DNA from: Desulfobacterales bacterium HSG17
GTDB lineage: Bacteria > Desulfobacterota > Desulfobacteria > Desulfobacterales > Desulfococcaceae
NCBI GenBank assembly: GCA_030377945.1
Contig: JAUCGD010000010.1
Coordinates: 1 to 42,082 of the forward strand
Direction: 5' to 3'
DNA: 42,082 nucleotides
The translations under genes were made by a program, and so were the position numbers. The stretch's first letter is position 1. Every line of letters starts with the position of its first letter. The notes beneath the pieces are model-generated. The model made no database searches, was not told the origin of the DNA, and saw nothing but the letters and a program-made list of their open reading frames with translations. Below are positions 2-18,504 of this stretch, piece after piece.

Positions 2-919
2 AATGATATTCCTTCTGAGCTTATTATCAGAAGCATTATCGGAGATACAATAAAAGATTTATTATTTAAAAAATATATTCCGCGGGTTTTTATAGCAAGT
101 GCTGAAAGGACTGGTTCTGCCATTTTTCAAAAGGAGCTTGATTTTACCCGTAATCGCCTGGTTGATCTGCTGGGAGATAAATCGTCAAGTCTTCATCCAT
201 TTGATCTGCTTGATAAATTTTCTTCGGAATATCCCATTCCTGTTAGAAGAAATGTTGATTTCATTCGTGAATTATCCTCAATATCAAATAAAGACAGTTT
301 TATTTATCAAAATCATCCTGGTATTCTTGAAGATTTTTCAAATATCATAGCCGGGGAATACAAAGTCACAAAAGACGGAGATGTGCAGTATGTACCAGAG
401 TCAAACAAGCGGCTGCGTCTTTCAATGGTAGAAAGCTCAAGTGCTGTAAGATCGCTTCTTGATATATGGTTTTATATGCGCCATACAGCAAAACCCGGTG
501 ACATGTTTATTGTTGACGAACCTGAATTAAATCTGCATCCTGAAAATCAGCAGCGTATTGCCAGGTTATTTGCGCGTCTGGTCAATATCGGTATTAAGGT
601 ATTTATTACAACACACAGCGATTATATTATTAAGGAACTTAATACCTTGATTATGCTGAATAAAAAAACAAATTTCACAAACCGGATTGCTGCTGAGGAA
701 AAGTATAATGAAAAAGAATTTATCTCTGCTGACAAGGTAAAGGTTTATATTGCTGAAAATCAGCTTGTTTTAAAAAAAGGAAATAAGAAAAGAACCTTAT
801 GTATGTCACTAACCCCGGCAGATATAGACTCGAACCTGGGTATTGAAGTAAAAAGCTTTGATACGACCATTGATGACATGAACAGGATTCAGGAAGCTCT
901 TGTCTGGGGGGATGAATAG
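2..919 (+). CDS. AAA/ABC-type ATPase, C-terminal part (5' end outside window)
   Basis: The frame is open from base 2, so the gene enters from the left and only about 305 C-terminal residues are visible; the Walker A region is not seen. The visible part carries a Walker B box (FIVDEPELNLHP) and a following H-loop (ITTHSDYI), the hallmark of the SMC/ABC-like AAA_21/OLD-type ATPases. An upstream SAERTG segment is also common in such proteins. The family uses ATP binding to drive dimerisation and control an attached or partner nuclease. The next gene starts 3 bases after the stop and encodes a small nuclease-like protein, so the two are probably translated together as a pair. An internal ATG at 383 is not the true start. 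Family is confident; biological role in the BREX locus is inferred. Confidence 0.85.
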   Translation, partial: NDIPSELIIRSIIGDTIKDLLFKKYIPRVFIASAERTGSAIFQKELDFTRNRLVDLLGDKSSSLHPFDLLDKFSSEYPIPVRRNVDFIRELSSISNKDSFIYQNHPGILEDFSNIIAGEYKVTKDGDVQYVPESNKRLRLSMVESSSAVRSLLDIWFYMRHTAKPGDMFIVDEPELNLHPENQQRIARLFARLVNIGIKVFITTHSDYIIKELNTLIMLNKKTNFTNRIAAEEKYNEKEFISADKVKVYIAENQLVLKKGNKKRTLCMSLTPADIDSNLGIEVKSFDTTIDDMNRIQEALVWGDE

Positions 920-922
920 TAT

Positions 923-1474
923 ATGTCTGATATTGCAACACTAAATAATATGATACATGATAATGCAAAGATTACATTACTAGATCATTACGATAAAGCT
1001 TACGTTCTCCTGCAAGAATCTGATACTCCTGATTCAAGTGTGCAGATTAAAGGCTTGCCTCAAGATGCAGTCATTATAAAGATTGATGATGCATTTAAAA
1101 ACGATCAGTTTTTTTCAGGTAAAAACGGAGAATGCAAAAGGGCTGACTATGCAATAATAGCAAAAGCAGGAGATAAAAAACGTATTCTCTATATTGAGAT
1201 GAAAAAAACAAAGGATCAGCGCAATTCCATAGTCAAACAGCTTAAAGGTGCCAAATGCGTAATGGATTATTGTTGTAATATTGCTTCTGTATTTTACGGT
1301 AAATCAGGATTTTTATCCGGGTATGAACCGCGTTTTATATCTTTTGGACATACCTCTTCCATAAGAAAACGAAGAACCAGAATCAAACGATCTGAATCTA
1401 TACACAGCACCCCTGAAAATCTGATGAAAATTGACTGGCCTGCAAATGTTCAGTTTAGTCATTTAGCCGGGTGA
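923..1474 (+). CDS. Small putative PD-(D/E)XK-type nuclease partner of the upstream ATPase
   Basis: This 183-residue protein has no family I can name with certainty. Residues 70-95 read like a PD-(D/E)XK active site: Asp75 in KRADYA, then a hydrophobic strand ending in IEMKK with Glu92 and Lys94, followed by a helix with Gln106 (KQLKGAK). The C-terminus is basic (RKRRTRIKR). It starts 3 bases after the ATPase stop, which argues for coupled expression. The function proposed, a nuclease gated by the ATPase, is inference from motif spacing and context; another small D-x(n)-ExK fold protein remains possible. Bases 1475-1544 downstream hold no gene. Confidence 0.7.
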   Translation: MSDIATLNNMIHDNAKITLLDHYDKAYVLLQESDTPDSSVQIKGLPQDAVIIKIDDAFKNDQFFSGKNGECKRADYAIIAKAGDKKRILYIEMKKTKDQRNSIVKQLKGAKCVMDYCCNIASVFYGKSGFLSGYEPRFISFGHTSSIRKRRTRIKRSESIHSTPENLMKIDWPANVQFSHLAG

Positions 1475-1544
1475 TGATTCAGAGTGAAGGGGAAAAACTG
1501 AAACTTCAAATATTACGAAATTTTACAGGGCAGGAGGATTCTAT

Positions 1545-2603
1545 ATGATTGAAAAAATTTCTCTTACAAATTTTACTGTATTCAGCAGACTGGACCTTGT
1601 GTTTTCCCCAAAAATAAATATTATCATCGGGGAAAACGGAACTGGGAAAACTCATCTGCTTAAAGCTGTTTTTGCCCTGTGTTCTGCCAATAATACATTG
1701 AAAAAAGATGCAGATATGAGCCAGGAAGAAATTTCAAGGCTTCTTAAGGAAAGATTTGTAAATACTTTTATGCCCCTTAAAAATAAAATCGGCAGTATGC
1801 TTTATTTCAGCAGTACGGAAAATGCTCAGGTTAAGGCTGATTTTGAGCATGATAAAAGGATTGCGTTTTCTTTTCATGAAAATTCCAAGTCTTTGAGCAT
1901 AACGGAAAACAAAGACTATCAGAACTATGTACCTGAGCCGGTTTTTATTCCCACCAAAGAAGTGCTTGCGCTTATGGAAGGGTTTGTAAGCCTTTATAAC
2001 AAGTTTCATTTATCTTTTGATATTACCTATTATGATATTTGTTCTCTTCTGGATCTTCCCTTTGCACGGGAGGAAAGATTAAATGACAAGACTGTATGGG
2101 CAATAAATGAAATTGAAAAACTGGTGGGCGGCAAATTCATTTTTCATGGGGGCGGCCGTGTTACGTTCAGGACAGAAGATAATGAATATTCAGCCAATGT
2201 TATAGCAGAAGGCTTTCGCAAGGCAGGAATGCTCTCCCGCCTTCTTGAAACCGGAACCATTCTGCCAGGTGAAAGCGGGCCTCTTTTATGGGATGAACCT
2301 GAAGGAAACATGAATCCCATGATTATGAAACTGATTGTTGAAATCCTGCTTGAGCTTTCCCGCAAAGGTCAGCAGATTATCCTGGCTACCCATGATTATG
2401 TTTTGCTCAAATGGTTTGATCTGCTTATGGATAAGGACAAAAAGGATGAGGTGAGATTTCATACCCTGTTTTCTGATCCGGTTTCAGATAAAGTTAAACT
2501 CCAAAGCACAGAAGATTATCGTCAAATTGATCAAAATTCTATTTCAGAAACATTGAGTAATTTGTATGATGCAGACATTAACAAGTCATTTGGAGGTTTA
2601 TAA
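1545..2603 (+). CDS. AAA/ABC-type ATPase (second ATPase of the BREX insert)
   Basis: Complete 352-residue SMC/ABC-like ATPase. The N-terminus IEKISLTNFTVF is the usual opening strand of AAA_15/AAA_21 proteins. Walker A is GENGTGKT (29-36), Walker B is LLWDEPEGNMNP (about 247-258), and the H-loop is ATHDYVL. The start at 1545 is preceded by an AGGAGG-like ribosome site (caggaggattctat). No nuclease domain is fused; instead the next gene, a small PD-(D/E)XK-like protein, begins at the base directly after the stop. It is unlike the first ATPase in its signature and tail, so the two pairs are not a recent duplication. Role in defence is inferred from position immediately upstream of pglX. Confidence 0.85.
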   Translation: MIEKISLTNFTVFSRLDLVFSPKINIIIGENGTGKTHLLKAVFALCSANNTLKKDADMSQEEISRLLKERFVNTFMPLKNKIGSMLYFSSTENAQVKADFEHDKRIAFSFHENSKSLSITENKDYQNYVPEPVFIPTKEVLALMEGFVSLYNKFHLSFDITYYDICSLLDLPFAREERLNDKTVWAINEIEKLVGGKFIFHGGGRVTFRTEDNEYSANVIAEGFRKAGMLSRLLETGTILPGESGPLLWDEPEGNMNPMIMKLIVEILLELSRKGQQIILATHDYVLLKWFDLLMDKDKKDEVRFHTLFSDPVSDKVKLQSTEDYRQIDQNSISETLSNLYDADINKSFGGL

Positions 2604-3098
2604 GTGATAACCTTAGATGAACAAGATTTGCGAATTTCATTAGAAAACGCTGTAAACGGGGAAAATTTTGACCGCGATGAAATAAAAAATGGGACAAGTA
2701 TTCAGCCGGTTGATTTAATTTTTGAATTTGAAAAATACTATTTATTTGTTGAAGTAAAAGATCCTGACGTGCCCGGGGCTTCAAACCCGGAGCATTTTAG
2801 AAAAGATCTTCAAACTGGCAAAGTAATACGGAAAGTAGCTGGAAAATTTAGAGATACTACTTTTTTCAGAATGAATCAAGGTAAGAATGACAAACCCATT
2901 AAGTATTTGTTTTTGCTTTCAATGGCTTCTTTAGACCCTATTTTGCTCTCAAATAAACAAGATGAGTTAAGAAAATCATTGCCTGCTGTACATCATTTTT
3001 GGGAAAGTGATATAACATGTATGGTTATAAATATTCAGCAATGGCAGAGATTATTTGGCACTGATTCACTTACTCGAATCAGCGAGATATCGTCATGA
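2604..3098 (+). CDS. Small putative PD-(D/E)XK-type nuclease partner of the second ATPase
   Basis: This 164-residue protein starts with GTG placed directly after the ATPase stop codon, with a strong GGAGG site inside the upstream gene's last codons (tttggaggtttataagtg). This is tight translational coupling. Residues 36-52 show PVD (Asp38) and, after a beta-strand, FVEVKD with Glu50 and Lys52, the D-x(11)-ExK pattern of PD-(D/E)XK nucleases. Later helices carry several Lys/Arg residues. I do not recognise a named family. The fold call rests on the short motif alone; function is inferred as the nuclease or nucleic-acid-binding half of an ATPase pair. Confidence 0.7.
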   Translation: MITLDEQDLRISLENAVNGENFDRDEIKNGTSIQPVDLIFEFEKYYLFVEVKDPDVPGASNPEHFRKDLQTGKVIRKVAGKFRDTTFFRMNQGKNDKPIKYLFLLSMASLDPILLSNKQDELRKSLPAVHHFWESDITCMVINIQQWQRLFGTDSLTRISEISS

Positions 3099-3151
3099 TT
3101 ATTTTTTGTGGCTTTTAAGATAACAAACAATTCAAAAAGGACAATAAATAA

Positions 3152-6100
3152 ATGGAAACCTCAAAGCTCAAAACATTTGCTCAATATGCCCGCAGGGCAT
3201 TGCTGGAACTTATTGAAAATAAACTGGTATTTGTACTGTCTCCTGACAGTCTGGCACGGCGGGAAAATCCCAAGGCTGTGGCTGAGCTTGAAAAACAGAT
3301 TCAGGCGGGTACTAAAGAAGCTGTGATTGAAAAGGCTGCTTATACCTGGTTTAACCGCTTTTGTGCCCTGCGGTTTATGGATGTTAATCAATATAACCGA
3401 GTTGGTGTGCTTTCTCCTGCTGACGGGCAGATTCAGCCGGAGATTCTGGCTGAGGCAAAGATGGGGGTTATGGATGAAAATATGATTCCTGCTGATGTTC
3501 AAACCAGGGTTTCAGATCTGTTAGGCGAGAGAATTCCTTCTCATGATTCCCAGAATGAGGCTTATGCACTGATTATTGTTGCTGTGTGCAATTACTGGAA
3601 CAGGGTTATGCCTTTTATGTTTGAGCGCATTGCCGATTTTACCGAGCTTTTAATGCCTGATGATCTGGTTTCCGACAATTCCCTGCCTGCACTTATCCGC
3701 GAGGCCATGAGTCCTGATGTTTGTGAGGATGTGGAGGTTATCGGGTGGCTGTATCAGTTTTATGTTTCAGAGAAAAAGGATGAGGTTTTTGCAGGGCTGA
3801 AGAAGAATAAGAAGATAACACCGGAGAATATTCCGGCTGCGACTCAGCTTTTTACTCCTGAATGGATTGTTAAGTATCTTGTGGAAAATTCTCTTGGCAG
3901 GTTGTGGATGCTTAACAGGCCGGGTTCCAGGCTTGTTCACAGGATGGAGTATTATATTAAGCCGGACCAGGAGGAGACTGATTTTCTCAGGGTTTCTTCG
4001 CCTGAGGAGATTAAGGTTTGTGATCCTGCCTGCGGGTCAGGGCATATGCTGGTTTATGCTTTTGAGCTTTTGTATGCGATTTATGAGGAAGAAGGGTATG
4101 ACGGGACTGAGATTCCGGGGTTGATTCTGGGGAAGAATCTGTTTGGGATTGAGATTGATGAGCGTGCTGGGGGGCTTGCTTGTTTTGCTTTGGTTATGAA
4201 GGCGCGGGGCAAGTATCGGCGGTTTTTTCGGAAGGCTGTGCAGCCAAAGGTTTGTGTTTTGGAGAATGTTTTGTTTATAACCACGAATGACATGAATAAC
4301 ACGAATGAAGAGTTTTTTAAAACTGAAGATGAAAACGGATTAATACAGATTATTATGGAGTTGTGCAAGACAGGGGTGGATAGGAATGCGTTGATTCATG
4401 ATCTGTATTTGTTTACAGAGGCTGATAATTTCGGCTCTCTGCTGAAACCGGAGTTGTCGCCCCATGATTTTGAAAAGCTGATTCCGGCTGCTGAAGATCT
4501 GGAAAAAGAGTATTTTTCCGATGTTTTTCTCAGTCCTCTTACAAAAAAGATCAGCTTGGCGCTGAAACAGGGGTATTTTCTCAGTTCTAAATATCATGTG
4601 GTTATTGCCAATCCTCCGTATATGGGTGGTAAGGGGATGAATGGGAGTTTGGGGACGTGGGCAAAAGAGAATTACCCGAACAGCAAATCCGACCTTTTTG
4701 CCATGTTTATTGAACGTGGTTTCAAATTGCTTGTAGATATGGGTTATAATGCAATGATTACAATGCAAAGCTGGATGTTTCTTTCATCTTTTGAAACATT
4801 GCGACAAAAATTATTAACAAATCAAAATATTGTCTCGTTAATACAGATAGGTTACAATAGTTTTCCTGAGCTAAATTCTAAAGTTGCTCAAGCATGTGCT
4901 TTTATATTGGTGAATTGTCAAAGGTATACGGTTGGTTCATACATAAATCTAAATGATGTTTCTCAATCGGCTGATAAAGAGAAAATTTTTATAGAAAAGA
5001 AAAAGAAAAAAGATATTCACTGGGTTAATCAACAAGATTTCAGTAAAATACCAGGTAGCCCAATTGCATATTGGGTAAGTGAAAAACTTGTTGAAATTTA
5101 TTCAAATAGTAAACAGTTTCATGACATTGCTGATTCAATTCAAGGCATGATTACTGGTAATAACAATAAATTTTTGCGAAGATGGCCTGAAGTCAATTCC
5201 ACAAAATTATCACTTAATAAAGCATTAATTGATGATGTTGATACAATTAACTCTTTTTGGATTCCTTACAACAAGGGGGGAGATTTAAGAAAATGGTATG
5301 GGAATAATGAATTTGTTTTGAATTGGAGCAATAAGGGTAAAGATTTAACAAGATCAAGAACTAAAAATGCTCAGTTTTATTTTAAACCTTGCATAACTTG
5401 GACTTTTATTACTTCTTCATTTTTTACTGCTAGAAAATGTACCCAAGGATTCGTCTGGGATGTCGCTGGATCAAGTGTTTTTCCACACCAAAATGATTAT
5501 TTTGGCAAATTATTATGTTTCATGTGTTCCAAGATTGGAAAAACAATTTTAGATGCAATTAATCCTACTCTAAATTATCAAGTAGAAAACATTCTTTCAC
5601 TCCCAGTTCATATTAATCTTGATAGCAACAATAATAGAATTACTCAACTGATGGAATTGTTGGTTATTACCACACGAACAGACTGGGACTCCTACGAAAC
5701 TTCTTGGGATTTTAAAACGCTCTCACTCCTACAATCCGACTATCGCCAGCCCACACTCAAAACCACCTACACAACCCTCCGCACCCACTGGCAAGAAATA
5801 ACCCTTGAAACACAGCGCCTCGAACAAGAAAACAACCGCATCTTCATTGAAGCCTACGGACTGCAAGACGAACTTACCCCTGAAGTGCCCCTTGCAGAAA
5901 TCACCCTTACCTGCAACCCCCACTACCGCTACGGAGGCAAAAAAACCGATGAAGAACTTGAAAAACTGCTCCTTGCCGACACCATCAAAGAATTCATCTC
6001 CTATGCTGTGGGCTGCATATTCGGGCGGTTTTCCCTTGACAAACCCGGCCTCATACTCGCAAACCAGGGAGAAACCATAGAAGACTATCTCGCACAAATC

Positions 6101-6697
6101 CCAAAACCGACATTTGCACCGGCCAAAGACAACGTAATCCCCATAATGGACAATGACTGGTTCACAGACGACATAACAGAACAATTTAAAACATTCCTGA
6201 AAACCACATTCGGCCTGGAAAACTACACAGAAAACCTCGCATTCATAGAAAATGCAATAGGAAAAAACATAAGCCAGTACTTCCTGAAAAACTTCTACCC
6301 AGACCACATAAAAACCTACAAAAAACGCCCCATCTACTGGATGTTCTCATCCCCGAAAGCCAGCTTCAACGCCTTAATCTACATGCACAGATACAGACCT
6401 GACACAGCATCAATAGTGCTGAACAACTACCTGCGCGAATATACAACCAAACTGGGCGCAAGAAAAGAAAACCTTGAAAACATAAGCATAAGCGCCGCAG
6501 CATCACAAAAAGAAAAAACAAAAGCCATAAAAGAAATCGAAAAAACCAAAAAAATCATAGAAGAGCTGAACACCTATGAACGCGAAACCCTCTACCCCCT
6601 GGCAGCAAAACAAATGGAAATAGACCTTGACAACGGAGTAAAGCAAAACTACCCAAAATTCGGAAAAGCATTGAAAAAGGTTACAGGGCTGAGTTAA
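3152..6697 (+). CDS. pglX: BREX adenine-specific DNA methyltransferase PglX (BrxX)
   Basis: The protein has 1181 residues, the usual length for BREX type 1 PglX. It methylates the N6 of adenine in a non-palindromic site, marking host DNA and taking part in phage exclusion. The SAM-binding motif DPACGSG is at 291-297 and the catalytic NPPY at 487-490, in the order of gamma-class N6-adenine methyltransferases. The N-terminus (METSKLKTFAQYARRALLELI) matches the family. Residues of about 510-845 are the expected specificity region, and a helical, Lys/Glu-rich tail follows (about 1085-1160). Base and codon use change sharply within the gene: G/T-rich before about 4690, AT-rich to about 5690, A/C-rich after. 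Start ATG has an AAGGAC site 8 bases upstream. The next BREX core gene, pglZ, is separated by three inserted genes. Confidence 0.95.
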   Translation: METSKLKTFAQYARRALLELIENKLVFVLSPDSLARRENPKAVAELEKQIQAGTKEAVIEKAAYTWFNRFCALRFMDVNQYNRVGVLSPADGQIQPEILAEAKMGVMDENMIPADVQTRVSDLLGERIPSHDSQNEAYALIIVAVCNYWNRVMPFMFERIADFTELLMPDDLVSDNSLPALIREAMSPDVCEDVEVIGWLYQFYVSEKKDEVFAGLKKNKKITPENIPAATQLFTPEWIVKYLVENSLGRLWMLNRPGSRLVHRMEYYIKPDQEETDFLRVSSPEEIKVCDPACGSGHMLVYAFELLYAIYEEEGYDGTEIPGLILGKNLFGIEIDERAGGLACFALVMKARGKYRRFFRKAVQPKVCVLENVLFITTNDMNNTNEEFFKTEDENGLIQIIMELCKTGVDRNALIHDLYLFTEADNFGSLLKPELSPHDFEKLIPAAEDLEKEYFSDVFLSPLTKKISLALKQGYFLSSKYHVVIANPPYMGGKGMNGSLGTWAKENYPNSKSDLFAMFIERGFKLLVDMGYNAMITMQSWMFLSSFETLRQKLLTNQNIVSLIQIGYNSFPELNSKVAQACAFILVNCQRYTVGSYINLNDVSQSADKEKIFIEKKKKKDIHWVNQQDFSKIPGSPIAYWVSEKLVEIYSNSKQFHDIADSIQGMITGNNNKFLRRWPEVNSTKLSLNKALIDDVDTINSFWIPYNKGGDLRKWYGNNEFVLNWSNKGKDLTRSRTKNAQFYFKPCITWTFITSSFFTARKCTQGFVWDVAGSSVFPHQNDYFGKLLCFMCSKIGKTILDAINPTLNYQVENILSLPVHINLDSNNNRITQLMELLVITTRTDWDSYETSWDFKTLSLLQSDYRQPTLKTTYTTLRTHWQEITLETQRLEQENNRIFIEAYGLQDELTPEVPLAEITLTCNPHYRYGGKKTDEELEKLLLADTIKEFISYAVGCIFGRFSLDKPGLILANQGETIEDYLAQIPKPTFAPAKDNVIPIMDNDWFTDDITEQFKTFLKTTFGLENYTENLAFIENAIGKNISQYFLKNFYPDHIKTYKKRPIYWMFSSPKASFNALIYMHRYRPDTASIVLNNYLREYTTKLGARKENLENISISAAASQKEKTKAIKEIEKTKKIIEELNTYERETLYPLAAKQMEIDLDNGVKQNYPKFGKALKKVTGLS

Positions 6698-6725
6698 TCA
6701 TGGTTCCCCAAAAAGTGAGATTATT

Positions 6726-8885
6726 ATGAACAATGAAAACAAACAAAATGACCCAAACAAAAGAACTGTCAGCATAAAAAATCTCTATCTTGACCCGAAT
6801 AATTTCCGGCTGATACACCAAAGCGATTATGTGAAAGTCGGTGATGACAAAATTAAAGATAAAAATATACAACATCGCACTTTTATAATGCTCACAGGTG
6901 ATAAAAATCAGCATATTCAGGATTTGTTAGACAGTTTTAAAGCCAATGACTATCTGCCCGTAGATCAGATACAGGTTCGGCAGCTTGAAGACGGAGGATA
7001 TGTTGTTATTGAAGGAAACAGGCGAATTGCCGCACTGAAATATCTGCATCAAAAATATAATGATAATAAAATTGATTTAGGAAACCTTAATAAATCCATT
7101 TTCACTAACACCCCTGTGGTATTTTATACTGACAGCAATAAAATTCATCATCTTACCCTGATGGCTTTGAAACATATAAGCGGAAATAAAAAATGGGGTG
7201 AATGGAATCAGGCAAAATTAATAGAAATACTTAAAAATACACACAATCTGCCTGAAAATGAAATTTGCAGCCGCATTGGGATAAAAAAAGTTGAACTGCG
7301 CAGAACTTTACGAGCCTTATCCTTTATTGAACAATATATTGAATCAGATTACGGAGACCAGTTCAATGAAAAAATGTTCCCGCTGTTTCGTGAAGCAATT
7401 TATCGTTCAAATATAAAAAAATGGTTAAACTGGGAAGAAACGGAATATAAGGCTGAAAACCTTGAAAACCTTGAACTTTTTTTCTCCTGGCTATCGGAAG
7501 AACCTGATTTGGAAGCAGACGGTGATATGGGATATGGAGATAAATATCTTCCTCCTGCACTTGTTAAACGTGAAGATGTCCGAACATTGGATAAAATAAT
7601 AAATGACAAAAAAGCTATTGCACAGCTTAAACTGAGCAGGGATATTAATACAGCATACCGTTCCAGCGATCATATTTTTAATGAACGCCAGCAAAGTGCA
7701 ATTATTACTATTGACCGGGAAATAGACACCCTTAATCAAATGACAATAAAGGGTGAATACTTACCTGGGCTTGAAAATACCCTGAACCGTTTACAGGGTG
7801 TAGTTGACAGAGCAAAAGCCCTTGGCCTTTCAGGAGTTGAACAGAAAACTGTATTCCATGATCGTATTGACATTCATTTTAAATCAATAAATATTTTAAA
7901 TTACAAACTGCTAAAAAATACAACTTTAAATGGTTTTTCCCGTATTAATCTGTTTGCAGGCATTAATAACTCAGGCAAAACAACACTGCTTGAAGCTGTG
8001 TATCTGCTTTGCAGGCAAAATGATTTTACAGGGCTTTTTGAAATTGTCCGGCGCAGGGGTAAGATTTCAAAAGATCGTATAAATCCTGAATGGTTTCTGG
8101 AGCAAATACAGCATGGTATAGAAATTGAAGGTATTTTTGACAACAGCTCTGCATCTGTACAAATAAAACATTACCAGGAAGAAAACAGCGGCATTGACAA
8201 GAGCCATTATCTTGAATCTGTTGAGATAACTTCAATGTATAATGGAATAAATCAAGATTCTCTGACAAAAATTTTTAAAGGCCGTGAACGGGAAACCCTT
8301 ACAACAGGGACAAAGATTCTTTGTCCTGTTGTTTACAGCAGTCCCTTTTTTCTAAATGAACCCCATCGTTATGCTTCTTACTATCATAAAAGCACACAAT
8401 CCAAAGCACTGCCTAAAATATTTGAATTTATTAAAAAAACAGTAATTGATACAATTGAGGATGTCCGGCTTGTTGATGAATGGCAGCGGTTTTTAGTAAC
8501 AGACAGCTGCCATGAGTATGCGATTGATCTTACAGGATATGGAGAAGGTTTGCAGAGAATTTTCTTTATATCATTATTATTTGCATCTGCACAAAACGGA
8601 GTATTGCTAATAGATGAATTTGAAAATGCAATTCATACGGATTTAATATCCAAATTTACGGAATTTATTCACGGTCTGGCTGTTTTATTTAATGTTCAGG
8701 TATTTATAACTTCTCACAGCAAAGAATGTATTGATGCTTTTGTTAAAAATATCCCGAAAATTGAAGACCTGTTTGTATGTGCCCTGGTTGAAGGAGATAA
8801 AGGTATAAAAACAAAAGAATATACAGGCTCAAAATACAGACGGATGCTGGAAGCCGGTAACATTGACATCAGGAGGGCAAAATAG
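6726..8885 (+). CDS. ParB/Srx-like domain fused to an AAA/OLD-type ATPase
   Basis: This is a 719-residue two-part protein. Residues of about 13-110 form a ParB/sulfiredoxin-type domain with the motif VVIEGNRRIAALK (E96, N98, R99, R100); a helical middle follows (about 140-370). The C-terminal half is an ABC-like ATPase with Walker A GINNSGKT (412-419), Walker B VLLIDEFEN (626-634; D630, E631) and H-loop FITSHSKE. ParB-type domains bind CTP or NTP and can direct DNA sliding or nicking; OLD-type ATPases pair with TOPRIM nucleases. The stop overlaps the start of the next gene, a TOPRIM-like protein, so the two make a split OLD-like system. It lies between pglX and pglZ on the same strand, so it is likely part of the BREX transcript. 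Domain calls are firm; joint function is inferred. Confidence 0.85.
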   Translation: MNNENKQNDPNKRTVSIKNLYLDPNNFRLIHQSDYVKVGDDKIKDKNIQHRTFIMLTGDKNQHIQDLLDSFKANDYLPVDQIQVRQLEDGGYVVIEGNRRIAALKYLHQKYNDNKIDLGNLNKSIFTNTPVVFYTDSNKIHHLTLMALKHISGNKKWGEWNQAKLIEILKNTHNLPENEICSRIGIKKVELRRTLRALSFIEQYIESDYGDQFNEKMFPLFREAIYRSNIKKWLNWEETEYKAENLENLELFFSWLSEEPDLEADGDMGYGDKYLPPALVKREDVRTLDKIINDKKAIAQLKLSRDINTAYRSSDHIFNERQQSAIITIDREIDTLNQMTIKGEYLPGLENTLNRLQGVVDRAKALGLSGVEQKTVFHDRIDIHFKSINILNYKLLKNTTLNGFSRINLFAGINNSGKTTLLEAVYLLCRQNDFTGLFEIVRRRGKISKDRINPEWFLEQIQHGIEIEGIFDNSSASVQIKHYQEENSGIDKSHYLESVEITSMYNGINQDSLTKIFKGRERETLTTGTKILCPVVYSSPFFLNEPHRYASYYHKSTQSKALPKIFEFIKKTVIDTIEDVRLVDEWQRFLVTDSCHEYAIDLTGYGEGLQRIFFISLLFASAQNGVLLIDEFENAIHTDLISKFTEFIHGLAVLFNVQVFITSHSKECIDAFVKNIPKIEDLFVCALVEGDKGIKTKEYTGSKYRRMLEAGNIDIRRAK

Positions 8886-9781
8886 TGGAAGATGTGAAAG
8901 CACTTTTTATTTTTTGCGAAGGCCCCCATGATGTGGCATTCTGCCGCTTGATTTTTAAATACTGCTTTAACATAAAAACCGTAAAATGGAAATTCAGCAA
9001 ATACCCGTCTCCGCTGAGCCAGATATTTAAACAAAACATGAAAAATCATGCTGCACAGGATATGAGCCTGGATATGGCGCATAAATTTTTTCTTCCTGAT
9101 AAAACCCTGGCAGATGAAAAAGAAAATCAGATAGTTTTGTTATTTAATTCAGGCGGTAAAACCAAACCTGAAAACCCAAAACTGTTTTTAGCAAATTATT
9201 TAAGTCTTATTGATGAAGCTGGCACATTGCCTGATGATATTGATAATATTGAAAAAGTTATCAATGATACAAAATATCTTTTTATCTATGATGCAGATCA
9301 TGAAGCAGCACCAACTGTTTTTCAGAATTGTAAAAACTCTTTTTCACATATTGAAGATACACATTTTATTAAAGAAAATTTCATTCCTTTATCTGAAAAC
9401 CATTTATTCGTAATCACAGAAAATAAGGCAGTATATATCTGGAGAAATTCTGACACGAAAAAAGGAACCCTGGAAGACATATTAATCCCTTTATTTAGCA
9501 GCCACAGCAAAGAAAAACTGGATAATGCAGAAAAATATGTGGATGAATCTTTTGAATGGGAGATTAACCACGATCAGGAAATAATGAAATATGCATCAAT
9601 TGCAAAACGTAACAAGGCCATTATTTCTTCAGCAGGACAAGGCCGGAAACCGGGACGCCCAATGAGTGCAATGATTGATGATAATATTTTTGCTGCAAAA
9701 AAGGATTTTCAGGAAAATAAATCTGTTCAGGACTTTGCAGATTTTATTTGCAATTTTGCTGGTTTGGAAAAAATAACATGA
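8885..9781 (+). CDS. TOPRIM-like (DUF3226/DUF4435-type) partner of the ParB-ATPase
   Basis: The 298-residue protein begins with GTG in a TAGTG overlap with the upstream stop, preceded by AGGAGG. TOPRIM hallmarks are visible: FCEGPHD near the N-terminus (Glu12, Gly13, Asp16) and FIYDADHE (Asp136, Asp138), with the segment FNSGGKT at about 87-93 in between, as in DUF3226/DUF4435 proteins. TOPRIM domains use the Glu and the DxD pair to bind Mg2+ for nicking or strand passage. The C-terminal tail has a GRKPGRP basic patch that could contact DNA. Pairing with an SMC-like ATPase is typical of OLD, AbiL and RloAB-like defence proteins. Exact family placement is uncertain. Confidence 0.75.
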   Translation: MEDVKALFIFCEGPHDVAFCRLIFKYCFNIKTVKWKFSKYPSPLSQIFKQNMKNHAAQDMSLDMAHKFFLPDKTLADEKENQIVLLFNSGGKTKPENPKLFLANYLSLIDEAGTLPDDIDNIEKVINDTKYLFIYDADHEAAPTVFQNCKNSFSHIEDTHFIKENFIPLSENHLFVITENKAVYIWRNSDTKKGTLEDILIPLFSSHSKEKLDNAEKYVDESFEWEINHDQEIMKYASIAKRNKAIISSAGQGRKPGRPMSAMIDDNIFAAKKDFQENKSVQDFADFICNFAGLEKIT

Positions 9782-9801
9782 ATATACTTTATCGGAAAAA
9801 G

Positions 9802-9958
9802 CAATAGACATTATCGGAAATAAGATTTGTAGTAAAAAAATCCCCCCTTGAGGGGGGCAGGGGGGTGTCGCACCCAGTATTTCTGTTCAACAACACCCCC
9901 CTTACTCCCCTCAAGGGGGAATAAAAAGGTAAATTTTTATTTCCGATAATGTTTATTG
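9802..9958. repeat. 157-bp palindromic MITE-like element
   Basis: Terminal 22-bp inverted repeats (9802-9823 and 9937-9958) match at 21 of 22 positions around the core acattatcggaaataa. Inside is a second nested inverted repeat of C and G runs (about 9841-9869 against 9891-9920, core ccttgagggg). The whole element could fold into one long hairpin. It fills the only sizeable gap in the BREX operon, between the TOPRIM-like gene and the GHKL-type gene, and carries no ORF. This architecture fits a non-autonomous mobile element or a large repeated palindrome. No target-site duplication is obvious, although a partial extra copy of tatcggaaa lies just outside at 9790. Confidence 0.7.
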
Positions 9959-9988
9959 TAGAGCAGTATCTTTGGAGGTGTTAACAAC

Positions 9989-10807
9989 ATGGAAATCAAA
10001 GAGATATTAAATCAAATAGCCAGGGGTGAAGACAATTCCAAGGAAGAACTGAGGCGATTGTTTCAAAGCATTGATCTTCTGCATGGCGATGAAATACCCA
10101 CAAAAGCAGGAATTGATAAACTTGACAGGCTGAGATTCAGGGATTTTATTAAGGATAATTATAAAACTGATCTGCCGGATGATCCTGAAAAACTTATTAA
10201 TCTTCTTCAAAACATGAATCTCGCCAGTGAACAGGGAACCATGAACCTGGCAGGGGTTCTTTTATTTGCAGAAAAACCTGAATGGATTAAGCCGGAATTT
10301 ATTGTCAAAGCTGTAAATTATCCAGGTAATGACATTTCAGTATCTGAATATCTTGACAGTGAAGATTTCAACGGGCCAATAAAAAAGATTTTCCAGGATT
10401 CCCTTGGTTTTATAATGCGGAATCTTAAAAAAATCCAGGCAGGTCAGAATGTAAATACTCTTGGTGTGCCTGAAATCCCGCAGATTGTTTTTGAAGAGCT
10501 TCTTGTTAATGCTCTTGTACACAGGGATTATTTAGTCAGTGCTGCAATTCGGATTTTTATCTTTGACAACAGGATTGAGATAATAAGCCCAGGCCATCTC
10601 CCGAATAACATGACAGTTGAAAAAATAAGAACCGGCAATTCCAATATCAGAAATCCGATTCTGGCATCTTTTGCAGCCAAGAACATGCTTCCCTATCGGG
10701 GACTTGGTTCAGGAATCAGAAGATCCCTTGAAGAGTGGCCTGATATTGACTTTACTGATGACCGTAAAGGATGCATATTTACAGTTATTGTGCGCAGAAA
10801 GGCGTAA
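9989..10807 (+). CDS. COG2865-like ATP-binding protein (GHKL C-domain), AlbA_2 core apparently missing
   Basis: The 272-residue protein has the C-terminal HATPase_c_4 region of COG2865 AlbA_2 regulators: EELLVNALVHRDY (169-181, N-box-like Asn174), DNRIEIISPG (193-202), RNPILA and a glycine loop YRGLGSGI. The N-terminus MEIKEILNQIARGED is the usual opening of the Schlafen/AlbA_2 domain. It then jumps straight to EELRRLFQSIDLLHGDE, which normally follows that domain, so roughly the whole DNA- and RNA-binding core seems deleted in frame. The start ATG has a GGAGGTG site. The gene sits directly between the palindromic element and pglZ, 18 bases from the latter. Genes of this type recur in BREX-like loci; their role is unclear. 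Alternatively it is a naturally short family variant. Confidence 0.75.
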   Translation: MEIKEILNQIARGEDNSKEELRRLFQSIDLLHGDEIPTKAGIDKLDRLRFRDFIKDNYKTDLPDDPEKLINLLQNMNLASEQGTMNLAGVLLFAEKPEWIKPEFIVKAVNYPGNDISVSEYLDSEDFNGPIKKIFQDSLGFIMRNLKKIQAGQNVNTLGVPEIPQIVFEELLVNALVHRDYLVSAAIRIFIFDNRIEIISPGHLPNNMTVEKIRTGNSNIRNPILASFAAKNMLPYRGLGSGIRRSLEEWPDIDFTDDRKGCIFTVIVRRKA

Positions 10808-10825
10808 ACAGATAAAGAAAAAAAT

Positions 10826-13327
10826 ATGAATAAAATAGCCCAGGCTCTTGAAGCCTTATTTGAAAGACACAGGATCGTATTCTGGTATGATGAGAAAAAA
10901 GAACTTTGGGATGAGTATGAAAGCCTGGAGATTGAAGATATTGAAAAAATTGAAATAACAAACAATCAATTCATGGTAAAACACAGAATTCTCAGACAGG
11001 AACCAGACACAAAATTCCTGCTTTATCATCAAGGTCCGCGTCCGGCAGATATTGACAACTGGCTTCTTGATGTGCAGTTGGCTTATGGAAACCTGAGAGC
11101 AGACCAGTCTGCAATCCGGCTGAGTGAAATGGGGCTGGGGCTTGAGTTTATTGATATTATTAATGAACATGCTGAGTTTTTTAACCTGACAAAATTCAGG
11201 GAAAGCCTGAAAAAACTCCTGAAACCTGATGATACACAGACCTTGGTAAGAAAAAAAATGCTTGCAGTCTGCGCTGCCTCAGATCCCCGGCCTGATGCAG
11301 TGATTGAAAGCCTTTTAGCAGAACTTGCTGAAAAAAAAGAAGACAGATTCAAGCTTATAAAAAACTGCTCTCTTGAATCCTTTTTATGGAACCTGCTGGA
11401 AAAACGCTATGAATACAAATCCCAAACCCCTGGGATTCAGGATTTTGCCATACAATTATTCAAATCCTGCTATGAAATGAATCAGGATAACCCTTTGCAG
11501 CTTAACACAGATGCAATTGTCTTTCTTAAACGCTGGAAAAACAACATAAGGCAGCAAAAAGCCTTTGAAACCCTTTCAAAAGAATGTGCGGAAATATTAA
11601 ACATAGAAAAAGACCTGCACAAAAGGGATATTTCATCTCTTAAAGAACTAGATTATTTTGAACTCATTGACATGAAAATATTAGGGGAACTTGCAAAAAA
11701 TGTTGTTAATCAGACAATTTCTTCAATTGACAGGGAAAACTTAATAAGACAGAGAAAACTCAGCCACTGGTATGAAAAATACAAAGACCTTTATCAAGCC
11801 ATAGATTTTGGTGCAAGATTTATCAATGCACTTGAACAGGCCGAACTTGCTGTTGAATCAATGCAGGACGGAATCTGCAAATATACAAAATCCTGGTTTA
11901 TCCTGGATCAGTTTTACCGCAAATACATCTATCATTCCCGAAAATCAGGACAAGTTTCAATGCTTGACAACCTTTCCGATAAAGTGGAAAACCTGTATTC
12001 AAATAATTTTCTCCTTGCACTAAACAACAACTGGCAGAAGATTATTGACAAATGCCATAAATGGGAGAGCTTTAATATTGATCTGCAAAGACATTTTTTC
12101 AGAAAAAAGATTTACCCTTTTCTCAGGGACAAAAAAAAGGTAATTGTCATAATCTCGGACGCGCTGCGATTTGAAGCAGGAGAGGAGCTTAACAGCCTGA
12201 TACGTAAAGAAGACAGGTTTGAAGCTGTAATTGAACCCATGCTCACCATGCTGCCCAGCTTTACAGGGCTTGGAATGGCCTCTCTTTTGCCAAACAGGGA
12301 AATAAAATTTGCAGATAATGATCCAGCCAATGTTCTTGTGGACGGGCAGAGCAGCAGGGGAACGGAAAACAGGTCAAAAATCATAGACAGCAATGTAAAA
12401 GGCAGGGCAAGGGCAATGACTGCAAGGGAACTCAGGGAGATGAACAAAACCCAATGCAGGGAATTGTTCCGGGAACATGACCAAATCTATATCTTTCATG
12501 ACCGTATTGACGCAATAGGGGATAAAAAAGAATCTGAGGAAAGGGTGTTTGATGCAGTTGAAGAAACCTTTGGAGAATTGATTGAAATAGTTAAAAAGCT
12601 CACAGGTGCAAATGCCAGCAACTTAATAATTACCTCAGATCACGGGTTTATTTATCAAAACAGGGCTATTGAGGAAAGCGACTTTATCAGTCCTGATAAG
12701 AATATTAAGGATGAAAATGTAATGCACCGCTCCAGGCGGTTTCTCCTGGGAAAAAATCTGCATGAAAACTCCAGCATGAAAAAATTTACATCCTGTGAGG
12801 CAGGAATTGAAGGGGATATGGATATTTTAATTCCCAAGTCAATAAACAGGATACGGATTAAAGGCGCAGGAAGCAGGTTTGTTCATGGGGGTGCATCTCT
12901 TCAGGAGATTGTCATTCCTGTTATAAAGATAAATAAAAAACGCAAAAGCGATATTTCCCAGGTCAGAGTTGACTTTCTGGGCAGTTCAACATCAGTTATC
13001 ACAACAGGCCAGTTGTCAGTTTCATTTTATCAGGCAGACCCGGTAACAGCCAAGAAACAGCCAAGAACCCTTTGGGCAGGGATTTATTCAAAAGAAGGTG
13101 AAACAATTTCTGACAGCCATGAAATATGCTTTGATTTTACTTCTGAAAATCCCAGGGACAGGGAAAAAGAGCTGAGGTTTGTTCTGACCCAAAAGGCTGA
13201 TGATTTAAACGGGCAGGAAGTATTTCTGCGTCTTGAGGAAAAGGTTGCAGGAACATCTCATTACAGGGAATATAAATCCCTTAGATATGAAATCAGGCGC
13301 TCAATTGTAAGCGATTTTGATTTTTAG
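10826..13327 (+). CDS. pglZ: BREX phosphatase-fold protein PglZ
   Basis: The 833-residue protein matches the length and layout of BREX type 1 PglZ (type A). The PglZ domain, in the alkaline phosphatase superfamily, is marked by VIIISDALRFE with the metal-ligand Asp445 and by TSDHGF (Asp605, His606), the second metal site. The N-terminal 430 residues are helical and charged. PglZ is a core BREX component, with reported metal-dependent nuclease or phosphodiesterase activity in homologues, and interacts with BrxB and PglX. It starts 18 bases after the GHKL-type gene and ends 27 bases before brxL, so pglZ-brxL is an operon. The call is strong because the two active-site motifs and the neighbours agree. 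Confidence 0.95.
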   Translation: MNKIAQALEALFERHRIVFWYDEKKELWDEYESLEIEDIEKIEITNNQFMVKHRILRQEPDTKFLLYHQGPRPADIDNWLLDVQLAYGNLRADQSAIRLSEMGLGLEFIDIINEHAEFFNLTKFRESLKKLLKPDDTQTLVRKKMLAVCAASDPRPDAVIESLLAELAEKKEDRFKLIKNCSLESFLWNLLEKRYEYKSQTPGIQDFAIQLFKSCYEMNQDNPLQLNTDAIVFLKRWKNNIRQQKAFETLSKECAEILNIEKDLHKRDISSLKELDYFELIDMKILGELAKNVVNQTISSIDRENLIRQRKLSHWYEKYKDLYQAIDFGARFINALEQAELAVESMQDGICKYTKSWFILDQFYRKYIYHSRKSGQVSMLDNLSDKVENLYSNNFLLALNNNWQKIIDKCHKWESFNIDLQRHFFRKKIYPFLRDKKKVIVIISDALRFEAGEELNSLIRKEDRFEAVIEPMLTMLPSFTGLGMASLLPNREIKFADNDPANVLVDGQSSRGTENRSKIIDSNVKGRARAMTARELREMNKTQCRELFREHDQIYIFHDRIDAIGDKKESEERVFDAVEETFGELIEIVKKLTGANASNLIITSDHGFIYQNRAIEESDFISPDKNIKDENVMHRSRRFLLGKNLHENSSMKKFTSCEAGIEGDMDILIPKSINRIRIKGAGSRFVHGGASLQEIVIPVIKINKKRKSDISQVRVDFLGSSTSVITTGQLSVSFYQADPVTAKKQPRTLWAGIYSKEGETISDSHEICFDFTSENPRDREKELRFVLTQKADDLNGQEVFLRLEEKVAGTSHYREYKSLRYEIRRSIVSDFDF

Positions 13328-13354
13328 GGATTCTAATATTTAAGGATAAAAACC

Positions 13355-15403
13355 ATGACAAAACTTGATGATAAAATCAATGAACATTTTCCCGGGCTTG
13401 TTGTGCGTAAGGATCTGGTTAAAATAGTCAAAGGCAATGCTATTGTTCCTTCCTATGTTCTTGAATACCTGCTGGGGCAGTATTGCGCCACATCAGAAGA
13501 GCAAAGCATAAAAACCGGCATAGAAACTGTCAAGGAAATACTGGGAAAGCATTATGTGCATAGAAATGAAGCAGGTTTAATCAAATCTGTTATCAGGGAA
13601 AAAGGGCGGCACAAGGTTATAGACAGGGTAAGCATTGCTCTTAATGATAAAGATGATGTGTATGAAGCCTCATTTAGTAATCTCGGCATAAAAAAGATTC
13701 TGGTTGATGCAGATACGGTTAAAAAACATCCCAGGTTTCTTGTAAGCGGTGTATGGTCTATTGTTGATATTGAGCATCAGTATTTTGAAGATAATGCGGT
13801 TTCCCCCTGGATAATCAATACAATCAAGCCGATCCAGCTATCTTCTTTTGATTATGAGCATTATATTAATGCAAGAAAAAAATTTGATCTTGAAGAATGG
13901 ATAGACCTTCTTATTCAAAGCATAGGATTTAACCCGGAAATGCTGGGCAGGAGAAATAAACTGCTTCAGCTTGTGCGCCTCATTCCCTTTTGCGAACGAA
14001 ATTACAATCTTATTGAGCTTGGGCCAAAAGGTACAGGCAAATCCCATATCTTTTCCGAGTTTTCACCTCACGGTATTTTAGTATCAGGAGGAGAGATAAG
14101 CGTTGCAAAGCTGTTTATCAATAACAGCACAGGTAAAATAGGACTGCTGGGATACTGGGATACAGTTGCTTTTGACGAATTTGCAGGCAAAAAAAAGCGT
14201 GCAGATAAATCCCTTGTGGATATTATGAAAAATTACATGGCAAACAAAAGCTTTTCCAGGGGAGTTGATACAACAGGGGCAGAAGCATCAATGGTTTTCC
14301 TGGGAAATACAGGCCATACCCTTGCCTATATGCTGAAAAATTCAAATCTATTTGAAGAACTGCCGGACCAGTACTATGACCCTGCTTTTTTAGACAGGCT
14401 CCATTTTTACATTCCAGGCTGGGAAACAGATATTATTCGTGGAGAAATGTTTTCCCAAGGCTACGGTTTTGTTGTGGATTATCTTGCGGAGATTTTAAGG
14501 CATCTGAGAACCCATGATTATTCGGACATCTATTCTCAATATTTTCAAGTGGAAAACAAAATATCAACCAGGGATAAAGACGGAATAAACAAAACCTTTT
14601 CAGGGCTTATGAAAATCCTGTTTCCCCATAAACAGGCAGAAAAAAAGGAAATAGAAGAAATCCTGCAATTTGCAGTTGAAGGCAGGAAAAGAGTTAAAGA
14701 TCAGATAATAAAGATTGACCCAACATTTCCAAAAGTAAATTTCGCATATATTCCCACTGACAGTAAAGAAATCGTTAATGTAAAATGCCTTGAAGAGCAG
14801 GAGTACCCGCAGTTTTTTAATCTGTCCGCATCTGAGGCTCAGGCATCTGAAGCTCAGGCATCTGAAACTCAAGCCCTGGAAAACATTGAAACACAGGAAG
14901 CAGAGCAAAAAAACACCCATATAATAGTCAAGGAAAACCAGCGGGGCATAAGCTATGACAAGCTTTTTGGGCCGTATATAAAAGATGCGGGTAAAATAGT
15001 GCTGACAGACCCGTATATCCGCGCTTTTTTTCAAATCAGAAATCTCATGGAATTTATTGAAACACTGGCAAAATTCAAGCCTGAAGACACTGAGGTTGAG
15101 CTTGTCCTGCTAACTGTGGAAGATGAATTCAAAGGGCCTCAGCAGCTTGATTATTTTATAAAAATCCAGGAAAACTGCATAATGGCAGGGATCAGGTTTT
15201 CATGGGAGTTTGATAAAACAAAATCCATCCACGCCCGGCATATTGTAACAGACAGCCAATGGAAGATTATTTTAGACAGGGGCTTAGATATTTTTCAGCA
15301 CTATGAAATGAACGACACCTTTGCCCTTGCCAACCGGCTTCAGCAGTACAGGACGTGCAGGGCTTTTGAGGTAACGTATTTAAATGCTATGGAAAATAAA
15401 TAA
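13355..15403 (+). CDS. brxL: BREX AAA+ protein BrxL with an MIT_C-like C-terminal domain
   Basis: The 682-residue protein is the AAA+ ring component of BREX. Walker A is GPKGTGKS (223-230) and Walker B is VAFDEFAG (D274, E275); the sensor segment is FLGNTGHT. BrxL homologues form DNA-loading hexamers and are needed for defence but not methylation. After a linker with three SEAQA-type repeats (about 492-506), residues 530-680 (GISYDKLFGPYI, DPYIR, KSIHARHI, ILDRGLDIFQ) resemble the MIT_C phospholipase-D-like domain rather than a Lon-type Ser-Lys protease domain. I see no GxSAG-type serine motif. It is the last gene of the BREX block; a hairpin lies right after the stop. Confidence 0.9.
   Translation: MTKLDDKINEHFPGLVVRKDLVKIVKGNAIVPSYVLEYLLGQYCATSEEQSIKTGIETVKEILGKHYVHRNEAGLIKSVIREKGRHKVIDRVSIALNDKDDVYEASFSNLGIKKILVDADTVKKHPRFLVSGVWSIVDIEHQYFEDNAVSPWIINTIKPIQLSSFDYEHYINARKKFDLEEWIDLLIQSIGFNPEMLGRRNKLLQLVRLIPFCERNYNLIELGPKGTGKSHIFSEFSPHGILVSGGEISVAKLFINNSTGKIGLLGYWDTVAFDEFAGKKKRADKSLVDIMKNYMANKSFSRGVDTTGAEASMVFLGNTGHTLAYMLKNSNLFEELPDQYYDPAFLDRLHFYIPGWETDIIRGEMFSQGYGFVVDYLAEILRHLRTHDYSDIYSQYFQVENKISTRDKDGINKTFSGLMKILFPHKQAEKKEIEEILQFAVEGRKRVKDQIIKIDPTFPKVNFAYIPTDSKEIVNVKCLEEQEYPQFFNLSASEAQASEAQASETQALENIETQEAEQKNTHIIVKENQRGISYDKLFGPYIKDAGKIVLTDPYIRAFFQIRNLMEFIETLAKFKPEDTEVELVLLTVEDEFKGPQQLDYFIKIQENCIMAGIRFSWEFDKTKSIHARHIVTDSQWKIILDRGLDIFQHYEMNDTFALANRLQQYRTCRAFEVTYLNAMENK
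14828..14872 (+). repeat. Three 15-bp in-frame tandem repeats in the brxL linker
   Basis: Units at 14828, 14843 and 14858 share gcatctgaagctcag with one or two changes each. They encode A-S-E-A-Q steps in the acidic linker between the AAA+ core and the C-terminal domain of BrxL. Because the unit is a multiple of three, copy changes would lengthen or shorten the linker without breaking the frame. Confidence 0.9.
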
Positions 15404-17308: not shown

Positions 17309-17314
17309 AACTTA

Positions 17315-18445: not shown

Positions 18446-18504
18446 ATTTTTTCTCCTTATCCTGCCACCTGTGATAAAAGACATATGAAATTAATTATAA
18501 GTAT

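Follow-up and report, generated by a model that had tools for sequence, protein, structure and literature searches.

We describe a 42,082-nucleotide stretch of DNA (hereinafter the window; contig JAUCGD010000010.1) from Desulfobacterales bacterium HSG17, at whose beginning we recognize what is probably the right-hand part of a type 1 bacteriophage exclusion (BREX) operon with three nested two-gene cassettes. The explanation that we favor as a whole, and hold to be probable, is that these cassettes are separate systems, each pairing an OLD-type ATP-binding cassette (ABC) ATPase as sensor with a small nuclease, that are lodged in the BREX operon as backup, probably abortive, layers of defense. 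Ten co-directional genes on the + strand fill positions 2-15403, the first 15.4 kb of the window, where the type 1 BREX genes pglX, pglZ and brxL are found together with a Schlafen-like gene and three ATPase/small-protein pairs. The BREX genes and the paired genes are the following:

2..919, + strand: ATPase of pair 1, PDC-M47A / PD-T4-4_A-like, C-terminal ~305 residues (PADLOC PDC-M47A 6e-147, PD-T4-4_A 4e-115; AAA_15/AAA_21; Walker B and H-loop)
923..1474, + strand: nuclease-like protein of pair 1, PDC-M47B, 183 aa (PADLOC 4e-66)
1545..2603, + strand: ATPase of pair 2, HEC-02A, 352 aa (PADLOC 4e-112; Walker A GENGTGKT; Walker B LLWDEPE)
2604..3098, + strand: nuclease-like protein of pair 2, HEC-02B, 164 aa (PADLOC 2e-45)
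3152..6697, + strand: pglX, type 1 BREX methyltransferase, 1181 aa (NF033452 1382 bits, cut-off 500; PADLOC PglX E=0)
6726..8885, + strand: ATPase of pair 3, PDC-M38A, 719 aa, with a ParB-like N-terminal region and an ABC-type ATPase (PADLOC 1.5e-263; Walker A at 412; Walker B at 625)
8885..9781, + strand: TOPRIM-like protein of pair 3, PDC-M38B, 298 aa (PADLOC 4e-88)
10826..13327, + strand: pglZ, BREX-1 type A (TIGR02687 885 bits, cut-off 270; PF08665 2e-60)
13355..15403, + strand: brxL with a C-terminal MIT_C (PLD-like) domain (PF13337 1e-129, PF20442 6e-46, PF16565 4e-40)

The type 1 BREX assignment is given by pglX, a type A pglZ and brxL, with NF033452, TIGR02687 and TIGR02688 all scoring above their NCBIfam cut-offs. 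Successive genes of the ten-gene run are separated by 3, 70, 0, 53, 28, -1, 207, 18 and 27 nt. The contig starts within the ATPase of pair 1; thus, brxA, brxB and brxC are not seen in the window and, because of this, pairs 1 and 2 are seen upstream of pglX and not flanked by two BREX genes. A preliminary description of this DNA, made from the sequence alone, had placed three such pairs around pglX inside a BREX locus. All three are indeed present at 2-919/923-1474, 1545-2603/2604-3098 and 6726-8885/8885-9781, flanking a type 1 pglX (3152-6697), while the enclosure of pairs 1 and 2 can be followed only on their pglX side. The same description held that BREX lacks a well-established nuclease, a view that is now outdated, as the PglZ of type 1 BREX has been reported to be a metal-dependent nuclease (PMC12205998).

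The distance from the ATPase stop to the next start is 3, 0 and -1 nt in pairs 1, 2 and 3, respectively, in agreement with the earlier statement that it does not exceed 3 bases. The Pfam AAA_21 and AAA_15 models match all three ATPases above their cut-offs; ATPases 2 and 3 show Walker A, Walker B and H-loop patterns, whereas ATPase 1, the 5' end of which is off the contig, shows Walker B and H-loop. Their best PADLOC matches fall in three different families, namely PDC-M47, HEC-02 and PDC-M38, and this rules out one pair copied three times. The earlier contention that the ATPases differ is thereby upheld for family, while its argument from length does not extend to ATPase 1, cut as it is by the contig start. 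Chance open reading frames (ORFs) are likewise ruled out, every small protein having conserved homologs. In each case both family models are matched by adjacent genes: the M47A match covers profile positions 161-461 of 461 (the first ~160 residues being off the contig) and is followed after 3 nt by the M47B match; the HEC-02A and HEC-02B genes abut with 0 nt between them; and those for M38A and M38B overlap by 1 nt. At its N-terminus M38A further shows a ParB match (TIGR00180, 4.9e-5 over residues 42-109, below the model cut-off) with a GNRR motif at 97.

Closely spaced genes of which the second encodes a small nuclease-like protein might also be expected of toxin-antitoxin addiction pairs that stabilize the locus, with the ATPase as a plain antitoxin. 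We regard this as highly improbable: the families match defense models and, in the comparable WonAB pair, the nuclease is toxic only when the ATPase is present and active, which excludes simple sequestration (PMC12137116).

The candidate catalytic residues of the small proteins are strictly conserved. In M47B, D75/E92/K94 are invariant across 52/52 aligned homologs, and two M47B homologs (P0049 and P0050) carry M47A-like sequence in-frame; in HEC-02B, D37/E50/K52 are invariant in 23/23 homologs; and in M38B, E12/D136/D138, a TOPRIM-type E...DxD constellation, are invariant in 33/33 members. DUF3226 (E<=0.1) is matched by 26/33 of the latter but not by the window copy. M47B and HEC-02B look PD-(D/E)XK-like by motif and predicted model, with modest structural scores. 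The nuclease motifs announced in the preliminary description are hence borne out by invariant residues in all three proteins and by models in two, with the reservation that the structural scores are modest and that the TOPRIM assignment draws on the motif and on the DUF3226 matches of relatives. None of the three matches a Pfam or NCBIfam family at E<=0.001, and sequence searches with their profiles against solved structures returned no convincing match (for M47B, Hjc with an E of 0.56); M38A likewise had no match at E<=0.001. The best solved-structure match of M38B (E 3.6e-4, 30 positions of designed TAL protein repeats) was set aside as spurious.

The recurrence of the pairs with BREX genes in other replicons, which the preliminary description had made the touchstone of its proposal, is observed for all three families: six of 13 HEC-02 loci have the pair between brxC and pglX, M47 takes this position in one of eight genomes, and M38 adjoins BREX core genes in 9 of 44 loci (loci and genomes outside the window carry L and G numbers below). 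On plasmids we recovered eight relatives of HEC-02A and two of HEC-02B. The two closest plasmid HEC-02 pairs (Methylomonas koyamae pLM6 and Sphingobium pTomMM15c) sit exactly between brxC and pglX; two further plasmid loci were inspected and showed no BREX gene by the queries used. Among genomes, the HEC-02B family model matches 1/274 (locus L067) of the class of G005, a Thiocapsa genome, and an HEC-02 alignment profile (A2) matches 9/297 of the phylum of G028, a Desulfobulbaceae genome. Four of these nine (L075, L096, L097 and L099) have the pair between brxC and pglX, and in L093, as in L067, it has a PglXI-type methylase on one side and a BrxH-type helicase on the other. In L094, L095 and L098 the search turned up no BREX gene near HEC-02; all three lie close to a contig end, and two of them have a stop inside the HEC-02B match. 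In sum, 13 HEC-02 loci outside the window were inspected, with six in the brxC-pglX slot (L045, L046, L075, L096, L097, L099), two in the methylase-helicase locus and five in neither; this sample is non-random, as both plasmid pairs in the slot were the top-scoring relatives of the window sequences, and it covers four of the eight plasmid relatives of HEC-02A and all genome matches but a weak one.

This distribution bears on the possibility that the pairs are slot-specific accessory subunits of BREX, the ATPase docking on its neighbor (BrxC/PglX or PglX/PglZ) and the nuclease acting as the BREX effector. HEC-02 occupies the brxC-pglX slot in 6/6 BREX-1-like loci in which both neighbors are visible, and the same slot is used by the M47 pair in L055 and by M47A alone in L068. 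In a larger tree, a single clade (support 100/99) unites HEC-02A of the window, L045, L046, L075 and L099, the loci of type A, apart from L096 and L097, which fall in a second clade of seven with five other loci; this qualifies the single BREX clade (100/99) of a seven-row tree. With regard to subtype, the L097 PglZ is of BREX-1 type B, and PglX exceeds the BREX-1 cut-off in L099 while in L096 and L097 it has the BREX-1 model as best match, below the cut-off. The pairwise identities of HEC-02A also track those of PglX (rho 0.84, 21 pairs) and BrxC (rho 0.87, 15 pairs); however, these correlations are mostly a between-subtype contrast among sequence pairs that are not independent, and within one subtype they are not significant (rho 0.56, p 0.09 and rho 0.66, p 0.16). 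The subunit proposal also has to contend with M38 and M47 being found without a nearby BREX gene, with G403 and G555 having both M47 and BREX genes on different contigs, and with 2/7 genome BREX loci with both slots visible having neither filled (L070, L077). We deem it distinctly unlikely.

As a separate observation, HEC-02B diverges much more than HEC-02A: L096 and L097 are 82% identical in the ATPase vs 42% in the nuclease, and the L099 HEC-02B is 24-33% identical to all other HEC-02B. The sequences suggest fast effector change or swapping, though the short ORF of L097 may exaggerate this.

The M47B model matches 5/274 and 3/297 genomes, and one match was found on plasmids. One region was inspected in each of these eight genomes, a second weak place in G245 being left out. 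In L055 the order is brxA-brxB-brxC-M47A-M47B-pglX-...-pglZ-brxL, and the inspected regions of the other 7/8 genomes showed no BREX core gene near M47.

A scan of genome contigs with M38A returned 44 loci, with a recognizable M38B beside it in 37; among the seven misses, L013 and L016 stop at a contig end. M38B had no match on plasmids. Four of the nine BREX loci show the arrangement pglX-M38A-M38B-pglZ (L002, L007, L008, L019); in L015 and L016 the pair follows pglX and the contig ends before pglZ, and in L013 and L018 it follows pglZ, with brxL next in L018; in the ninth, L042, M38A stands before brxL. These loci span subtypes, with PglZ type B in L018 and L019 and BREX-6 in L007 by the model test. 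In the remaining 35/44 loci no BREX core gene was found beside the pair, several contigs being short; in one of these, L031, a weak PglX-like match occurs at a distance of 7 kb. A Pfam PglZ search matched 13 of the 28 genomes with M38 loci; it misses PglZ type B (L019 genome) and was not used for counts. Ten neighbors sampled from eight non-BREX M38 loci comprise three with no family, four with no known defense role (RHS repeats, DUF4432, radical SAM, chemotaxis receptor) and three possible defense genes (an AAA-ATPase with PDDEXK_9, a helicase, and GmrSD_N with AlbA_2), suggesting that outside BREX M38 is sometimes in other defense surroundings. In L001 (Parabeggiatoa), another pair, of an OLD-ABC-like ATPase and a 174-aa protein, lies at 6310-8198 near the M38 pair, and no BREX gene was detected there; pairs are thus stacked outside BREX as well.

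In an M38A tree of 33 sequences (the window and 32/44 loci, with at least 600 residues matched and no stop), 6 label changes are required to account for the nine BREX rows (bootstraps, 5-6), and strong branches force at least 2; label shuffles gave a mean of 8.2, with 15/500 as low as observed. This indicates some clustering, yet also that M38 entered or left BREX more than once. The nearest relative of the window M38A by tree path is L002, also from BREX. The occurrence of both M38 and M47 without a BREX gene nearby favors self-contained cassettes, and the earlier suggestion that the modules could be under BREX control gains no support from it.

We further surveyed the slots on either side of pglX starting from PglZ type A, which occurs in 6/369 and 7/297 genomes, i.e. 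13 places, with both slots visible in 7/13 (L055, L068, L069, L070, L075, L076, L077). At least one ATPase-nuclease pair is present in 4/7: M47 in L055, HEC-02 in L075, AbiL in L076 and Septu in L068. There is no pair in either slot in L070 and L077, and L069 has unidentified small ORFs. L097, found via HEC-02, has two pairs (HEC-02 and HEC-01), and the window alone among the inspected loci has three. On plasmids, 14 loci have near-full brxC, pglX and pglZ, two with a pair (both HEC-02) and 12 without room for one, as counted by eye among the matches listed, 60 of 249-265 records per table. Other slot contents seen in L080-L083, L055 and L096 include DarT with an ADP-ribosylglycohydrolase, HEPN, XisH/XisI, Shedu, PDDEXK/PDC-S02 and Ppl.

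It is conceivable, if rather unlikely, that these are simply independent systems hitch-hiking with a defense island, functionally unconnected to BREX and gathered there only because the operon is transcribed and tolerates insertions. The diversity of slot contents (Septu, AbiL, Shedu, PDC-S02, HEC-01, Ppl, DarT, HEPN, XisH/XisI as annotated) and the several passages of M38A in or out of BREX are in line with this. However, HEC-02 and M47 are found in one slot only, where random landing would give a different picture unless the copies were inherited with BREX. Families do tend to keep one slot, brxC-pglX for HEC-02 and M47 and most often the position after pglX for M38; M38 also lies on either side of pglZ, and hence not every family is slot-constant. 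A bolder extension would see the flanks of pglX as sockets of BREX-1 for socket-specific, long-term partners that watch over the neighboring BREX subunits and are triggered once a phage inactivates these, one guard per subunit and stacked three deep in the window. We think this unlikely: it is weakened because M38 lies on both sides of pglZ, and the slot constancy of HEC-02 (6/6) could reflect inheritance with BREX.

Under our preferred explanation of nested sensor-nuclease systems, the OLD-type ABC ATPase of each pair would likely both sense the infection and gate the response, and the product of the gene immediately downstream, PD-(D/E)XK-like in two pairs and TOPRIM-like in the third, would serve as the nuclease effector. 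The cassettes would probably be transcribed along with the BREX genes and kept dormant until the ATPase encounters something that the phage produces, most likely a late product or a BREX inhibitor. Once released, the nuclease might cut nucleic acid, quite possibly host tRNA or rRNA, and abort the infection. The cassettes would accordingly be backup layers and not parts of the BREX complex.

Several points count against this explanation. The predicted models have best Z values of 5.6 for M47B and of 8.4 (Upx) and 7.4 (BspD6I) for HEC-02B, at or below the tool's typical value for models without a clear match, and Foldseek found nothing reaching E 0.001 for either model. M38B is TOPRIM-like by its motif and the DUF3226 matches of its relatives, and an hhalign profile comparison with one AbiLii protein gave a probability of 0.1. 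ATPases occur without their partners: L068, found via pglZ, has M47A and no recognizable M47B between brxC and pglX (which is itself in several ORFs), and in L042 M38A is followed by brxL with no M38B. HEC-02 is mostly found with BREX or BREX-like genes (6 + 2 of 13 inspected loci), which fits dependence on BREX. Lastly, the interval between pair 3 and pglZ bears on the assumed common transcript; it holds the following:

9802..9958, no strand: MITE-like (miniature inverted-repeat transposable element-like) inverted-repeat element, downstream of pair 3 and upstream of the Schlafen-like gene (terminal inverted repeats of 27 nt with 89% complementarity; inner CCCCTTGAGGGG hairpins)
9989..10807, + strand: Schlafen-like HATPase_c_4 protein, 272 aa (HATPase_c_4 3e-14)

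This hairpin-rich element may split the transcript. Terminator-like sites number 26 vs 13.7 (standard deviation 3.9), several of them inside the element; a promoter scan was uninformative, with 49 found vs 46.7 expected. Elsewhere in the window, the end and hairpin motifs of the element that were searched for have no exact copy. As for the Schlafen-like protein, the AlbA_2 RNase domain has no match in it at E<=0.01, while its relative in L075 matches both HATPase_c_4 and AlbA_2. In L007 the Schlafen-like protein after M38 is also without a detectable AlbA_2, as is a fragment in L079; variants devoid of the nuclease may recur near pglZ.

On the opposite strand 3' of brxL are a gene with GAF and cyclase domains and a patatin-like gene, beyond which are genes including ManC, a GDSL lipase and chemotaxis proteins. 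The first two adjoin each other at 15446-18484 in a cyclase and phospholipase arrangement, the nucleotide-cyclase-domain gene having PADLOC PycC matches down to 9e-20.

Ten genes here accommodate BREX, a Schlafen-like gene and three candidate cassettes, which makes the locus an unusually dense natural case of nested defense. If the cassettes respond to inhibition of BREX, it would allow a test of whether embedded modules guard their host system, the question behind 'guilt by embedding'. From the slot preference one would predict that the families lodged between brxC and pglX detect any disturbance of BrxC or PglX.

As to known systems, both proteins of each pair match the PADLOC candidate entries PDC-M47, HEC-02 and PDC-M38, the difference being that here all three are in one locus. 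The PDCs are reported to have been identified through 'guilt-by-embedding', and the abbreviation HEC denotes an Hma-embedded candidate (PMC12988326); that embedding is a matter of naming and not a protein feature, and the window HEC-02 is instead directly upstream of the BREX pglX. In the literature no paper on the families was found under the names PDC-M38, PDC-M47 or HEC-02, the last string occurring in one chemistry paper. M47 resembles PD-T4-4 in that M47A matches PD-T4-4_A (4e-115) and M47B matches PD-T4-4_B (5e-7), but its nuclease is far from PD-T4-4_B and the M47 models score higher for both proteins, so that we do not place it in PD-T4-4. By description it is also like WonAB of the Vibrio WASA-1 prophage, an OLD-ABC ATPase with a small PD-(D/E)XK nuclease that is reported to be similar to PD-T4-4, requires both active sites and inhibits translation with the genomic DNA intact (PMC12137116); WonAB differs in coming from a prophage. 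M38A matches AriA of PARIS (9e-23) and AbiLi of AbiL (6e-36), and its partner is TOPRIM-like by motif as in those systems; in PARIS the ATPase detects the anti-restriction phage protein Ocr and activates the TOPRIM nuclease (as told in PMC12839542). However, M38A has a ParB-like N-terminal region, and it is the second protein that sets the pair outside PARIS and AbiL: at E<=0.001 M38B is not recognized by any AriB or AbiLii model, all six of its PADLOC matches being to PDC-M38B.

The closest precedent is a 2026 survey reporting at least 1242 taxa in which BREX and BREX-related systems are accompanied by modules of an OLD-ABC ATPase and a nuclease; it describes such layering and proposes modules beside or inside BREX loci as backup suicidal effectors (PMC12839542). 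The pairs in the window agree with these in combining an OLD-type ABC ATPase with a PD-(D/E)XK-like or TOPRIM-like putative nuclease in or next to the BREX core genes, while neither a three-pair locus nor a slot rule is singled out in the portion of that text available (PMC12839542). Thus, this kind of layering is already known, and what the window adds to it is three different pairs in one locus and the tendency of the families to keep to their slots.

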